48,789 nt of DNA from Halobacteriales archaeon SW_7_65_23 (GTDB taxonomy: Archaea > Halobacteriota > Halobacteria > Halobacteriales > Haloarculaceae). The stretch lies in NCBI GenBank assembly GCA_003022725.1, contig PXSQ01000017.1, positions 12,449 to 61,237 of the forward strand, read 5' to 3'. The notes below the pieces were generated by a model. It searched no databases, was not told where the DNA came from, and saw only the letters and a program-made list of their open reading frames with translations. How positions within the stretch are numbered: the first letter of the stretch is position 1; every line of letters begins with the position of its first letter. Shown here in pieces: positions 39,278 to 44,815 of this stretch. The translations under genes and the position numbers were made by a program.

Positions 39278-39403
39278 TCGCCACGAAACCCGTCCAGCAT
39301 ACCGCGACGAGCATAGCGAGCGAGGGCCCCCGAGCGCGGAAAGGCGGTGGGCAACAAGCTGGTAAGAACCCACTTCGGTGCCCGAGGCGAATGTCAACAC
39401 GGT

Positions 39404-39859
39404 ATGTCTTCCGATCGAGTGATCGAGCTGTTGTGCAACGCCTACGGCGACGAGATCGAGACCGTGATGAACTACCAGACGAACGCCATCGTCCTCGACG
39501 GGGTTCGCGCCGAGGAGATCAAAGAGAGCCTCCAGGCGGACATCCAGGAGGAGCTGGGCCACGCCGAGCAGCTGGGCAACCGCCTCAAGCAACTCGACGC
39601 CCGACCGCCCGCGTCCATGGAGTTCACGGCCCGCCAGGAGTCCCTCCAGCCGCCGGAGGACTCGACGAACGTGATCGCGGTCATCAACGGCGTGCTCGAC
39701 GCCGAGGAGGACGCGATCTCGACCTACCGCGACCTGATCGACGCCGCCGAGGAGGCGGACGACCCCGTCACCGAGGACCTCGCCGTGACGATTCTGGCCG
39801 ACGAGGAGGCCCACCGGACCGAGTTCCGCGGGTTCCAGAAGGAGTACCAGAGCGACTGA
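39404..39859 (+). CDS. Ferritin-like di-iron protein
   Basis: 151 residues, four-helix bundle. Metal-ligand motifs are EIETVMNYQ (Glu in helix 1), EELGHAEQL (ExxH), EEDAISTYR and DEEAHRTEF (ExxH). This matches the rubrerythrin/bacterioferritin-like group used for iron storage or peroxide defence. The ATG at 39404 starts the first helix; earlier starts are unrelated. The A of its TGA stop is the first base of a family A element. Confidence 0.9.
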   Translation: MSSDRVIELLCNAYGDEIETVMNYQTNAIVLDGVRAEEIKESLQADIQEELGHAEQLGNRLKQLDARPPASMEFTARQESLQPPEDSTNVIAVINGVLDAEEDAISTYRDLIDAAEEADDPVTEDLAVTILADEEAHRTEFRGFQKEYQSD

Positions 39860-40433: not shown

Positions 40434-40481
40434 ACGACGGTGCTTGCATCGTCCGGGACGGATGAGCGGCCGGCCCCTTTC

Positions 40482-40542
40482 ATACTGGTGGCTGTAATTC
40501 TTTTCTCAATTCGAGTTTTCACGTACGTACAGCCACCAGTAT
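40482..40542. mobile_element. MITE-like element, family B, copy 6 (61 bp, internally deleted)
   Basis: ATACTGGTGGCTGTAA, TTCTTTTCTC, AATTCGAGTTTTCACGTACG and TACAGCCACCAGTAT. It is inverted relative to copy 1 and lacks the central 50 bp. Its last two bases are shared with the start of the family D element. Confidence 0.85.
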
Positions 40543-40650
40543 ACTGTCGGACGTAACTCTGTGTCACATCGTGACACTCTCCTGGCTGTATTCGTACGGT
40601 TGAACGGCTGAACGTGACGCGTGACTCCACGAAATTACGTCCGACAGTAT
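40541..40650. mobile_element. MITE-like element, family D (110 bp)
   Basis: Perfect 16-bp terminal repeats ATACTGTCGGACGTAA (40541-40556) and TTACGTCCGACAGTAT (40635-40650), no ORF. It directly abuts a family B element. Its termini are also related to the inverted repeat at 24012-24056. This is the only complete copy in the window. Confidence 0.8.
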
Positions 40651-40702
40651 CAGTCCCGCCCGGCGTGGCAGTCCAGGCTGGGCGGGACTGAAAGGGGCGA
40701 GG
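40651..40702 (+). ncRNA. 11-bp stem hairpin followed by TGAAAGGGGCGAGG
   Basis: CAGTCCCGCCC (40651-40661) pairs perfectly with GGGCGGGACTG (40680-40690) across an 18-base loop, followed at once by AAAGGGGCGAGG. The sequence TGAAAGGGGC also occurs at 6863 and, inverted, at 40473. It starts directly after the family D element. It may be a small RNA or an end structure of a lost mobile element; expression is unknown. Confidence 0.35.
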
Positions 40703-40847
40703 CGTTCGACGAGCGAGGCGTCTCTGAACACCACCGGGGTGACCCGGGACGGAACGACAGTATTCGGGGTCGGACGGATGAATTCCCACCTTCCAGGATG
40801 GACCAACGGGTCTATGTGTCGACGCCACCAAGTCGGAGGCGAGTCGA
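40703..40847. other. Intergenic stretch before the metal-handling cluster
   Basis: 145 bp with no gene recognised. No clear TATA box is visible ahead of ATG 40848, so the promoter may be weak, non-canonical or lie further upstream among the mobile elements. Confidence 0.3.
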
Positions 40848-41660
40848 ATGGCACTCCCAACGATCTTCGGGACCGACATCGTCCTGTTTTTCCTCGTCGG
40901 CCTACTCGGGGGTGCACACTGCATCGGGATGTGCGGCCCGCTCGTGACGATCTACGCGAGCAAGATGGACCCGACGCGCGCCGACGGCGGCGCGGAGACT
41001 GCGGACCGCCGGCGCCGGGTCCGCGGCTCCCACCTCACGCTGTTCGAGGTGCGCCAGCACGCGCTGTTCAACGTCGGCCGGACCGCGAGCTACACGCTGC
41101 TGGGCGCGCTGCTGGGCGCGCTCGGCGGCCTCGTCTTCCTCGGCCTCGGCGAGGTCACGGCGACGGCTGAAGCCGTCCGGGGAGTCGTCGGGGTCGTCGT
41201 CGGTGCCGCAGTGATCCTCATCGGCGGCCAGTACGTCCTGGGACGGATCTCCGTCGGAGTTCAGTTGCCAGGGACGGGTCGCATCATGAACCGCCTGACC
41301 GAATGGGTCGAACGGCTGGCAAGCGGCCCCGGCATCGTCGGCCTGGGCGCGATGCACGGCCTGCTGCCGTGCCCGATCCTCTACCCGGCGTACCTCTACG
41401 CGTTCGCCAGCGGCTCCCCCGTGGCCGGCGCCGTCGCGCTCGCCGCGCTGGGGGTCGGCACCATCCCCGCGGTGTTCGCCTACGGCACGATCATCGAGAG
41501 CGTCGACGCGGTCCACCGGCGTCGCCTCCACCGGGTGCTGGGCGCCGTCTTCCTCGTCCTCGGCTACGTGCTGTTCGCCCACGGCCTGATGAGCCTCGGT
41601 GTCCACATCCCTCACCCCGGACTCCCGTTCTGGGATGCGCTCGGCGGAGCGAGCCAGTGA
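40848..41660 (+). CDS. DsbD_2/SafE-like heavy-metal membrane protein
   Basis: 270 residues with six or more predicted helices. The first helix ends in GGAHCIGMCGPLV (Cys25, Cys29), the conserved Cys-bearing motif of the cytochrome-c-biogenesis/UreH_2 (sulfite exporter TauE/SafE-annotated) family, in which the cysteines bind or pass metal or electrons. A matching MHGLLPCPILYPAYLYA motif in the second half is the pseudo-symmetric repeat. A positively charged loop separates the halves. It precedes three Tat-exported metal or haem proteins, so a metal or electron conduit across the membrane is suggested. Confidence 0.85.
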   Translation: MALPTIFGTDIVLFFLVGLLGGAHCIGMCGPLVTIYASKMDPTRADGGAETADRRRRVRGSHLTLFEVRQHALFNVGRTASYTLLGALLGALGGLVFLGLGEVTATAEAVRGVVGVVVGAAVILIGGQYVLGRISVGVQLPGTGRIMNRLTEWVERLASGPGIVGLGAMHGLLPCPILYPAYLYAFASGSPVAGAVALAALGVGTIPAVFAYGTIIESVDAVHRRRLHRVLGAVFLVLGYVLFAHGLMSLGVHIPHPGLPFWDALGGASQ

Positions 41661-41755
41661 TACCCGGCTTGCCCGGATTTAAATCCTGGCCGCGTGTGTC
41701 AGGCCCGGACACGGAACCGCAATATGAAAGAGCGCACACGCCCAAGGCGGGGGTG

Positions 41756-43012
41756 ATGGAGCTTCCCGACCCTGACGAGACCTCCCGACGCGATTACCTC
41801 CGGTCGCTCGTCGCCGTCGGCGGGACGGCCGCTCTCTCTGCGTGTCTCGATCTGACTGGCGACGAGAGCGGGAGCGGCGTCCCGACGGGCGACCCTGTGG
41901 AGCGGCCCGCCCGCCAGCACGCCTGGAACGACGCCCTCGGGACGGACGACGACGGGAATCCCCGCCCGCCGGAACACCACGTTCTGGTTCCGCTCTCGCT
42001 GACGACAACTCCCGATGCAGACGCCAGCGACACCGTCGAGGCGGCGTTCCAGTCCCTGGAACGCGCCTACGCCCACGATCCCGCCGGGCTGCTGTTCACC
42101 GTCGGGTACTCACCAGCCTACTTCGCGCAGGTCAGCAGCGAGAAGCCGATTCCAGCGCCCGAGGCGATCACGACGCTCGAATCGCCCGAGTTCGACGAGT
42201 TCGACGCCGTGGTCCACTTCGCCAGCGACAAGGCCGCCGTCGTGATGGAGGCCGAACAGGCGCTACTCGGTGAGACCGACGAGCCCAACGGCGTCGAAAT
42301 GGACGCGACCCTCGAGGGGGTGTTCGAGCGCGCCGAGCCGCGGCGCACCGGGTTCGTCGGGCCGGGGCTGCCCGCCGAGCACACCGGTCTCGACGGCGTC
42401 CCCGACTCGGTTCCCGAGGAGGCGCCCTTTTTTATGGGCTTTCGCTCCGGGTTCGCCGAGAGCCAGGCGCCCGAAGAGCGCGTAACGATCCAGGACGGGC
42501 CCTACGCCGGCGGAACGACGATGCACGTCGAGTCGCTAACGCTGCAGCTGCAGACCTGGTTCGAGCAGGACAACCACTTCCAGCGGGTGTCGAAGATCTA
42601 CAGCCCGGAGCACGGCGAGGAGGAGCTGGCCGGCGACGTCGGCGAGAAACTCGGGACATCGACGGGTGTCGCCGGTGAGATTGCGGAGCGAACCGAACAG
42701 GACGCCCGCGAGCGCGGCATGGTCGGTCACGCACAGAAGGCCGCCCGGGCGCGCGACGACAACGGGACGCCGCCGCTGCTGCGCCGCGATTTCAACACCG
42801 TCGACAACGAGGTGCCGGGCGTGCACTTCCTGAGCCTGCAGCGATCAATCGACGAGTTCGTCCGGGTCCGGCAGGCGATGGCCGGCGAGGATCTGGCCGG
42901 CGAGGGCGTCGGCCAGCGGCTCAACAACGGCATCCTCCAGTACATCTTCGTCCGGCGACGCGGCAACTTCCTGCTCCCGCCCCGCGAGGACCGGGCACTG
43001 CTGGAGGCCTAA
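41756..43012 (+). CDS. Tat-exported DyP-type peroxidase-like protein
   Basis: 418 residues. Tat signal SRRDYLRSLVAVGGTAALSAC with a lipobox-like Cys30. The body has dye-decolorizing-peroxidase features: FFMGFRSGF (230 region, in place of the usual GxxDG), DGPYAGGTTMHVESL, VGHAQK (323-328, His325 as probable haem ligand), RRDFN (343-347) and a C-terminal NNGIL and RRRGNFLLPPR. The distal Asp of the classical GxxDG is not evident, so peroxidase activity may be altered. EfeB-type DyP proteins work in iron uptake, matching the neighbours. Confidence 0.85.
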   Translation: MELPDPDETSRRDYLRSLVAVGGTAALSACLDLTGDESGSGVPTGDPVERPARQHAWNDALGTDDDGNPRPPEHHVLVPLSLTTTPDADASDTVEAAFQSLERAYAHDPAGLLFTVGYSPAYFAQVSSEKPIPAPEAITTLESPEFDEFDAVVHFASDKAAVVMEAEQALLGETDEPNGVEMDATLEGVFERAEPRRTGFVGPGLPAEHTGLDGVPDSVPEEAPFFMGFRSGFAESQAPEERVTIQDGPYAGGTTMHVESLTLQLQTWFEQDNHFQRVSKIYSPEHGEEELAGDVGEKLGTSTGVAGEIAERTEQDARERGMVGHAQKAARARDDNGTPPLLRRDFNTVDNEVPGVHFLSLQRSIDEFVRVRQAMAGEDLAGEGVGQRLNNGILQYIFVRRRGNFLLPPREDRALLEA

Positions 43013-43031
43013 CGAGAGATCAGACGATCAC

Positions 43032-44294
43032 ATGACACGACATTCCCCAGGACGCAGAACGGATCGACTCTCCAGGCGGGCGTTCCTCGCAGCCGGCGCG
43101 GCCGCGACGGGCGCACTCGCCGGCTGCATCGGCGGCGACGACGAGGACGGCAACGGGAACGGCGGCAACGGGACGAACGGCGATGAGGGCGACGGCGAGC
43201 CATCTTCACCCGACGTCGTCAATTCCTCGAACGCGCCGACGACGCCGTCGGTCGAGGACCCGCCGGACGCGGTGTATCTGCCCACACACCAGGAGTCGAT
43301 GGAGCACCTCGAGACGGTCGAGGCGGGGGAGTACGCCGTCATGCCGATGCTCACCTACCCCCACAAGTTCTGGCTCGTCAGCGGCACCGAACGCGAGGCG
43401 GTCACGCCGGACTCGACGGGCGTCCACCTGATGGCGACAGTCTGGGACGCCGAGACCGGGGAGGTGCTCCCGGTCGACACCGGCGCACAGCTGCGGCTCA
43501 CCCGCGACGGCGACCTGGTCGACCAGCGGGCCCCGTGGCCGATGATCTCTCAGACGATGGGGTTTCACTTCGGCGACAACGTCCCGCTCCCCGAGCAGGG
43601 AACCTACGCCGTCGAGTTCGACCTGACGCCGATCGGCGGCGACACCGTCCGCAAGACGGGCGAGTTCGCGGACCGGTTCACCGAACCCCGGACGGTGCGC
43701 TTCGAGTTCGAGTTCGACCAGGAGTTCCAGGAGTCCGTCGTCAACGGCGTCGAGTACCTCGAGGAGGACCAGTGGGGCGACCGCGGGGCGCTCGAACCGA
43801 TGGCCGGGATGGGCGGGATGAACGGCGAAATGGAAGACGGTGCCGGCGACGACGACATGGACGACGGCGGCGACGGCAACGGTAGCGAGGGTGGCATGGA
43901 GATGTCGATGCCGTTCTCCGCCCTCCAGCCCGCCGACGCGTACCTCGGGACAGATCTGGGAACCCTCGCCAGCGGCGACGCGACGTTCGTCGTCAGGTAC
44001 CTCACGGAGACGCGGCTGACCGACGGATCGTCGGGGTACCTGCTGGTGTCGCCCCGGACGCCGTACAACCGCGTGCCGCTGGCGGACACGGCGCTGGCGG
44101 TCGAGGGCGCCCTGGAGGGCGAACTCATCCAGACGCTGGACAGCGAACTGGGCCACCACTACGGCATCGCGGGCGACCTCGCGTCGGACGAGCAGCTGGA
44201 CCTCGTCGTCGAGTCGCCGCCGCAGGTCGCCAGACACCGCGGGTACGAGACGGCGTTTCTGGAGATGCCGCCGATGACCGTCGAGGTGCCGTGA
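43032..44294 (+). CDS. Tat lipoprotein, P19/Tp34-like metal-binding type
   Basis: 420 residues. Tat signal with lipobox (RRAFLAAGAAATGALAGC), an acidic Asp/Gly/Asn linker, then a beta-sandwich whose segment GFHFGDNVPLPEQGTYAVEF resembles periplasmic P19 iron/copper proteins. A Met- and Asp-rich low-complexity insert (MAGMGGMNGEMEDG to GGMEMSMPF, about 256-297) could bind copper. The C-terminal half is a second beta-domain. It starts 19 bp after the DyP gene and overlaps the next gene by one base. Confidence 0.8.
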   Translation: MTRHSPGRRTDRLSRRAFLAAGAAATGALAGCIGGDDEDGNGNGGNGTNGDEGDGEPSSPDVVNSSNAPTTPSVEDPPDAVYLPTHQESMEHLETVEAGEYAVMPMLTYPHKFWLVSGTEREAVTPDSTGVHLMATVWDAETGEVLPVDTGAQLRLTRDGDLVDQRAPWPMISQTMGFHFGDNVPLPEQGTYAVEFDLTPIGGDTVRKTGEFADRFTEPRTVRFEFEFDQEFQESVVNGVEYLEEDQWGDRGALEPMAGMGGMNGEMEDGAGDDDMDDGGDGNGSEGGMEMSMPFSALQPADAYLGTDLGTLASGDATFVVRYLTETRLTDGSSGYLLVSPRTPYNRVPLADTALAVEGALEGELIQTLDSELGHHYGIAGDLASDEQLDLVVESPPQVARHRGYETAFLEMPPMTVEVP

Positions 44295-44815
44295 TGTCGT
44301 CGCGCAGACGGGTCCTCGCGGGCGCACTCGGGGCCGCGACGGCGACCCTCGCCGGCTGTGTCGGCAGCGGGAGACAGGGCGACGACGAGCCGACCGACAC
44401 CGAGGAGAAGATCCACGCGGACCTCAAGCTCGACGGGACGGCGCTCAGCTCGAACTTCCCGATGGAGCTCGTCGAGGTCGAGAGCGGCGACCGGGTGGTC
44501 GTCATCCACTGGCACGGCGACGACAGACACTGGCACCTCCAGCCTCTGGAGCTGCCGCTGGACGGCTCCCGGTCATTCCGGGCGGTCGCCGTCGACCGGG
44601 ACCGCGACGAGATCCCGCTGGGAGACGACGAGACCTACCAGCTTGCCGTCGGCCGGGGGGAGGAAACGTCGGCGGACCTCGTCGACGTCGAAGTCGTCGA
44701 CGACCTCGTCACGATCTACGGTCGTTCGGCGGGCGAAGGCCAGCTGTTCGTCCGGATTATGCAGGACGGAGAGCGCGTGTTTCTGTCCCCACCGATCCGA
44801 ACCGTGGTTTCGTAG
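44294..44815 (+). CDS. Small Tat lipoprotein with a His-rich metal site
   Basis: 173 residues. Signal SSRRRVLAGALGAATATLAGC with lipobox Cys. The mature part has a cupredoxin-like size and a cluster of His and Trp, VIHWHGDDRHWHLQPLELPL in two overlapping pieces, then beta strands. IHWHG resembles the copper-ligand motif of multicopper and nitrosocyanin-type folds. It is the last gene of the cluster and shares its ATG base with the TGA of the P19-like gene. Confidence 0.75.
   Translation: MSSRRRVLAGALGAATATLAGCVGSGRQGDDEPTDTEEKIHADLKLDGTALSSNFPMELVEVESGDRVVVIHWHGDDRHWHLQPLELPLDGSRSFRAVAVDRDRDEIPLGDDETYQLAVGRGEETSADLVDVEVVDDLVTIYGRSAGEGQLFVRIMQDGERVFLSPPIRTVVS

Follow-up and report, generated by a model that had tools for sequence, protein, structure and literature searches.

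A putative copper/haem cluster in a Halovenus-related haloarchaeon

The window (the whole stretch of 48,789 nucleotides analysed here) carries four co-directional, closely packed genes on the + strand, encoding a DsbD_2 membrane protein, a DUF7405 protein, a P19-like protein and a small lipoprotein. We propose, giving the idea roughly even chances, that this cluster is an extracytoplasmic copper/haem redox module for metal handling, and we infer that the metal is likelier to be copper than iron. The proposal draws on the DyP fold of DUF7405, its EfeB-like His/Arg spacing and family-wide loss of an Asp, the homology of the P19-like protein to P19, FtrA and FetP, the linkage and nested presence of DUF7405 and the P19-like protein, the absence of FTR1 and the copper context of DsbD_2. 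Further points in its favour are the thiol-redox genes of pHTUR04 and N. aibiense, the ATPase and CDF genes of pNG600 and the DtpA-Sco-ECuC precedent. The nearest named relatives of the window genome are H. aranensis, H. salina and H. rubra, and the DUF7405 protein of the metagenome-assembled genome QS_4_66_20 is 88% identical to that of the window. The cluster and its domains are as follows:

40848..41660, + strand: DsbD_2 (SafE/CcdA-related) membrane protein, 270 aa (PF13386, 1.3e-46; Cys motifs GAHC-x3-C-GP and HGLLPCP)
41756..43012, + strand: DUF7405, Tat-exported lipoprotein of predicted DyP fold, 418 aa (PF24152, 1.4e-147; AlphaFold; Foldseek)
43032..44294, + strand: tandem P19-like Tat lipoprotein (Iron_transport domain and DUF7350), 420 aa (PF10634, 2.9e-5; PF24041, 4.6e-39)
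43254..43766, + strand: N-terminal P19-like domain with conserved H111, H132-x-M134, M171, M176 and H179 (column counts; hhalign against FetP)
43797..43919, + strand: Met-rich acidic linker joining the two P19-like domains (sequence; low-confidence stretch in the model)
43914..44291, + strand: DUF7350, putative second P19-like domain, with conserved HYG (H376) and PPQxxRH (H402) (hhalign of N- against C-terminal domain)
44294..44815, + strand: small Tat lipoprotein, 173 aa, with H-x-H-x4-H-x-H (HWHGDDRHWH) (alignment; same domain in ZnuA ORFs)

In cluster order the genes are separated by 95 bp and 19 bp, and the P19-like and small lipoprotein genes share a 1-nt stop/start overlap (TGATG). Each of the three exported proteins bears an RR motif and a lipobox Cys (SAC/LAGC). 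A Pfam search of the cluster left the small lipoprotein without a family.

DUF7405 is a predicted DyP-fold protein without the distal aspartate

DUF7405 was modelled with AlphaFold using 55 haloarchaeal sequences (pLDDT 88.7, pTM 0.86). The model has the dimeric alpha+beta barrel of the DyP superfamily, and its best Foldseek matches were all DyP peroxidases (E down to 3.9e-16, probability 1.00, TMt about 0.7). Prediction of the fold, together with the RR motif, thus bears out the initial annotation, which had called this a Tat-exported DyP-like protein. At the sequence level, the DUF7405 profile weakly matched deferrochelatase and DyPs in the PDB (E 0.08 and above), while a single-sequence PDB search returned no credible relative and aligning the profile by hhalign with EfeB as a single sequence yielded nothing usable. 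No mention of DUF7405 was found in the literature searched.

E. coli EfeB (from MG1655) has D235 in GFKDG, H329 in SHIRL and R347 in LRRGY, and the window protein has S231 in GFRSG (residues 228-232), H325 in GHAQK and R343 in LRRDF, with identical spacings of 94 and 18 residues (92-96 and 17-19 across the family). All 55 aligned sequences share H325, R343, R344, H286 and H357. The initial annotation had seen no obvious GxxDG; the position of its Asp is Ser in 43/55 and Ala in 12/55 (GF[KR/E][S/A]G). The proximal haem His and distal Arg of DyPs therefore have counterparts in H325 and R343, an equivalence based on spacing, fold and the weak PDB profile match (E 0.08), and the distal Asp has none. 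As read from the alignment, the presumed haem-binding residues are retained and the peroxidase Asp is lost throughout the family. Accordingly, we place DUF7405 in the DyP superfamily despite its missing distal Asp; it is predicted to bind haem through H325 and would be a weak peroxidase at best.

By analogy, the closest functional precedent would be EfeUOB together with Streptomyces DtpA. DUF7405 resembles EfeB, a type A DyP, in its Tat export, DyP fold and matching His and Arg positions, but it lacks the GxxDG Asp, is a lipoprotein and is accompanied by a P19-like protein rather than by EfeU, the FTR1-type permease. DtpA is likewise a Tat-exported DyP encoded with extracytoplasmic copper-handling proteins: its operon contains the copper chaperones Sco and ECuC, and it is the proposed oxidiser of Sco-bound Cu(I) (PMC4736821). 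In contrast, the window has neither Sco nor ECuC, and DtpA is an active DyP-type peroxidase.

A P19-like protein with two putative P19 domains

Pfam places PF10634 over part of the N-terminal half of the third protein, above cut-off, and DUF7350 over its C-terminal part. A profile of 53 P19-like sequences matched Brucella FtrA (6.4e-6) and the structural model (pLDDT 83.8) matched FtrA, FetP and HftA in Foldseek (E about 1e-4, probability 1.00); a single-sequence PDB search gave no credible relative. Pfam, profile and fold all identify a P19 domain, and the earlier description of a P19-like Tat lipoprotein with a Met-rich insert stands, given the RR motif, the lipobox and a linker at residues ~256-296. 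Within the linker, M257 is kept in 44/53 relatives and the other residues vary. Aligned with hhalign, the N- and C-terminal domains match each other (E 1.8e-6 to 4.4e-6, probability 87-90%), pairing GFHFG with GHHYG. Since DUF7350 aligns with the N-terminal domain in this way, it is best read as a second P19-like domain, a relation that rests on the internal comparison, DUF7350 against FetP alone being weak (E 0.005). The whole protein is then best read as a tandem, dimer-like P19 on one chain. The copper-ligand geometry of P19 lies between subunits.

The N-terminal domain aligns with E. coli FetP (from plasmid pUM146) at E 4.8e-6. FetP VHLEAD reads VHLMAT in the P19-like protein (HLEAD as HLMAT) and FetP PMVASDGPHYG reads PMISQTMGFHFG, so that the acidic SDGPH segment corresponds to TMGFH and the Asp of DGPH to M176. 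H132, M171 and H179 align with the His/Met/His copper-ligand residues of FetP and, like M134 and M176, are conserved in about 49-51 of the 53 sequences. The acidic patch of P19 that holds an iron analogue consists of Glu44, Asp46 and Asp92 (PMC9174327), whose counterparts in the tandem protein are Met or neutral. Retention of the His/Met residues with loss of the acidic ones, as read from the alignment, speaks for copper rather than for an iron site of the P19 kind. NCBI labels these proteins 'iron transporter', an automatic label that is called into question by the disappearance of the iron-site residues.

Compared with FtrABCD, FetMP and P19, the haloarchaeal protein shares an extracytoplasmic P19 fold with conserved His and Met residues and, in some cases, nearby thiol-redox genes, as for Campylobacter P19 (FetP), which is encoded with the thioredoxins FetE and FetF (PMC10783030). 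It differs in being a lipoprotein of two fused P19-like domains with the acidic iron-site residues replaced, and in belonging to an order without the FTR1/FetM permease.

DUF7405 and the P19-like gene form the conserved unit

Most genomes of the order carry these families, DUF7405 being present in 262/293 and DUF7350 in 252/293. Their presence is nested (both in 252 genomes, DUF7405 only in 10, DUF7350 only in 0, neither in 31; Fisher 1.6e-33, relatedness not corrected), and in a sample of the phylum all 26 DUF7405-bearing genomes belong to this order. In 62/80 loci a P19-like gene lies no more than 5 kb from DUF7405, compared with 0/40 for the control, mostly chromosomal 17-kb stretches picked at random in the same genomes (Fisher 4e-18). 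The conserved unit is therefore DUF7405 plus the P19-like gene, two genes rather than four. The four-gene order, whose conservation had been put forward as a check, is limited to some Halovenus (the window, L036/L160, L037/L157, L038/L053, L046/L166 and L167); in other Halovenus genomes DsbD_2 lies on its own at a different place, and G182 and G148 have the P19-like and small lipoprotein pair without DUF7405. Many genomes carry several P19-like copies.

Other genes recur near DUF7405. A polytopic membrane protein without Pfam or NCBIfam match, here fam3, lies near DUF7405/P19 in 13/80 loci compared with 0/40 controls (L096:3003-4109, L182:11339-12850) and is a candidate permease of the DUF7405-P19 system outside Halovenus; it was not found beside the window cluster. 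DUF7471, a small membrane protein with HHxxEHxLD, is linked in 22/80 loci and an HVO_0163-type HTH regulator in 25/80, each against 0/40 controls (examples L128:6783-7121 and L102:12251-12763), and the two are a candidate sensor/regulator pair. Thiol-redox genes are found near DUF7405 in 8/80 loci compared with 1/40 controls (p = 0.27); this makes the thiol-redox link weak across the order, and we claim no general enrichment. In individual cases P19-like genes do have such neighbours: on pHTUR04 these are CcdA-TlpA-SCO, and in N. aibiense CcdA-TlpA, which would fit both the DtpA picture and Campylobacter FetP-FetE/FetF. SCO homologues lie near DUF7405 in L093 and L099.

Plasmid-borne DUF7405-P19-P19 clusters adjoin genes for a heavy-metal P-type ATPase, with a His-rich N-terminus, and a CDF transporter (L182 on pNG600; L186). 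Such islands, with their HMA P-type ATPase and CDF genes, and the multiple P19-like copies in many genomes are what would be expected of a metal-resistance or oxidative-stress module, whose surface proteins would work alongside the exporters, sequestering and oxidising Cu(I) or another toxic soft metal. We consider this quite improbable: exporters are nearby in few of the 80 loci, and almost the whole order has the core pair, as would suit a housekeeping role better.

FTR1 is absent from the order

FTR1 (PF03239) reached the cut-off in 0/195 genomes of the order and was not found in the window's own genome (79% complete), although the same search matched four of the well-known control genomes. 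The missing permease that the initial annotation had pointed out is thus a lineage trait, FTR1 being below cut-off in all 195 genomes. The parallel with EfeUOB and FtrABCD that accompanied this remark survives in its metal/haem theme, DyP fold and P19 homology, whereas iron uptake is doubtful given the replaced acidic residues.

The main rival to the copper/haem module is nevertheless FTR1-independent iron uptake, in which the tandem P19 and the DyP-fold protein would capture iron, free or haem-derived, at the cell exterior and pass it to an unrelated permease, possibly fam3. P19 and DyP-A (EfeB) are components of bacterial iron uptake (PMC9174327, PMC7611857), fam3 occurs near DUF7405 (13/80 loci against 0/40) and a Dps-like gene lies beside the window cluster; yet other residues stand in place of P19's acidic iron-site ones, the order is without FTR1, fam3 is not beside the window cluster and the contexts of DsbD_2 and SCO indicate copper, so that we hold this reading to be unlikely. 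Against copper itself count the role of bacterial P19, FtrA and FetP in iron uptake, the NCBI label and the upstream Dps/ferritin-like gene, and zinc also has to be weighed: the His-rich N-terminus of the plasmid ATPase would fit it as well, and the other home of the small lipoprotein domain, ZnuA, points to zinc-like metals.

DsbD_2 is linked to the cluster in part of Halovenus

The membrane protein scores 159.5 bits against PF13386 (cut-off 24.9) and carries two Cys motifs, invariant in 7 relatives, one of them within GAHCIGMCGP; its annotation as a DsbD_2/SafE-like protein with GMCGP cysteines is therefore sound (PF13386, 1e-46). Its proposed place as a stand-in for the permease is unlikely. 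Haloarchaeal DsbD_2 genes often adjoin FixI/CopA-type P-type ATPases and plastocyanin-like Tat lipoproteins (PF00127), in some loci also cytochrome-oxidase genes, and a CopZ-like HMA protein in L161 and L162; these usual copper-gene neighbours and the patchy linkage rule out DsbD_2 as a general replacement permease. The ATPase-linked proteins have the same family assignment and Cys motifs and, outside the genus, are up to 68% identical to the window copy, which differs in lying beside DUF7405/P19 rather than an ATPase (no copper ATPase gene was found adjacent). We take DsbD_2 to be a putative supplier of copper or thiols.

In Halovenus, DsbD_2 is single-copy and lies beside DUF7405 in part of the genus only. 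The four genes may thus be neighbours without joint function, the true partners being only DUF7405 with P19 and P19 with the small lipoprotein, and DsbD_2 serving general copper-enzyme maturation. In line with this, DsbD_2 is unlinked to the cluster in G182, G268, G317, G322, G323 and G327, and in G322, where the other three genes are missing beside it, it still has its ribH-aminotransferase neighbours. However, DsbD_2 is also next to DUF7405 in Natronococcus jeotgali (L044) and G033 (L126), and next to a DUF7350-like fragment in L147, suggesting repeated association, and the four genes are closely packed in one direction; we therefore judge mere neighbourhood to be somewhat unlikely.

The small lipoprotein domain recurs inside ZnuA proteins

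Halovenus and its near relatives are the main carriers of full-length small lipoproteins close to that of the window, whose genes as a rule immediately follow a P19-like gene, also at loci without DUF7405 (L155, L163). A profile built from seven members (A3) finds the same domain, as WHxDHWHGxLPxIPV, in the middle of ZnuA-family substrate-binding proteins of many haloarchaea. Examples are ORFs of L168, L238, L241, L245, L249 and L251, with A3 scores of 1.3e-24 in L238 and 1.4e-19 (domain) in L168; the host ORFs are PF01297 (1e-38 to 1e-44). The A3 tally of 267 genomes was inflated by matches to the Tat signal only, and only matches reaching profile position ~150 or beyond were used. The window protein is thus the same domain in free-standing form, but its partner is P19-like, and no ZnuA/B/C is among the called genes beside the cluster. 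Because the domain recurs inside ZnuA, it is probably, judging by sequence, a general metal-capture domain that is not peculiar to this cluster, and for it zinc-like metals are as likely as copper. The HWHG feature of the initial annotation is present in the window (IHWHGDDRHWH) and fails as an exact motif: P19-linked small proteins keep only H-x-H...WH, and WHxDHWHG is typical of the ZnuA inserts.

Next to haloarchaeal ZnuA genes, the same HWH domain also makes up one- or two-domain lipoproteins, many of them rich in His; no Pfam model matched the stand-alone forms tested. The L168 locus, which also has ABC-3 permease and ATPase genes, encodes a lipoprotein largely of His-Asp repeats (L168:3171-4199) ahead of the ZnuA-type gene with the inserted domain.

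Proposed mechanism and significance

In the copper/haem module, the tandem P19 would hold copper in its His/Met site, with the C-terminal domain taking the part that the second subunit plays in a P19 dimer. DUF7405 would bind haem through H325 and use it to control the metal's redox state, DsbD_2 would supply reduced thiols or Cu(I) from inside, and the small lipoprotein would act as a shuttle, capturing metal and transferring it onward. The net role would be acquisition, delivery or detoxification of copper at the outer face without the FTR1 iron channel.

The DUF7405-P19 set is an order-wide new version of the known P19/DyP systems, with a probable switch of metal. It is a more doubtful step to suppose that haloarchaea swapped an FTR1-dependent iron system for an extracytoplasmic copper/haem relay, composed of a Met-rich one-chain-dimer P19 and an Asp-less DyP-fold protein as a redox pair, with metal captured by a domain shared with ZnuA; if true, this would be an order-wide metal system without described counterpart. 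How haloarchaea, having no FTR1, obtain their metals is little understood. Two domains of unknown function present in most haloarchaea, DUF7405 (262/293) and DUF7350 (252/293), gain a testable role, and an unnamed, probable metal-capture domain common to the P19 partner and ZnuA is identified. Haloferax volcanii carries both the DUF7405 and DUF7350 families, so the question is directly testable there.

Sequences upstream of the cluster

A short way upstream, separated from the cluster by a divergent cupin gene, is a Dps/ferritin-like gene (window 39347-39859; PF00210, 2.8e-21) that is missing at the corresponding position in the other Halovenus loci examined. Nested inverted repeats occupy window 40464-40768, between the cupin gene and DsbD_2, one with ATACTGTCGGACGTAA arms (40541-40563/40628-40650) and the other with TACAGCCACCAGTAT arms (40482-40496/40528-40542). 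They are not in the close relative L166, which rules out these palindromes as a conserved operator, and among 253 loci the palindrome TGTCAC-N3-GTGACA occurs in the window's own locus only. The nested repeats look like a MITE-type insertion.
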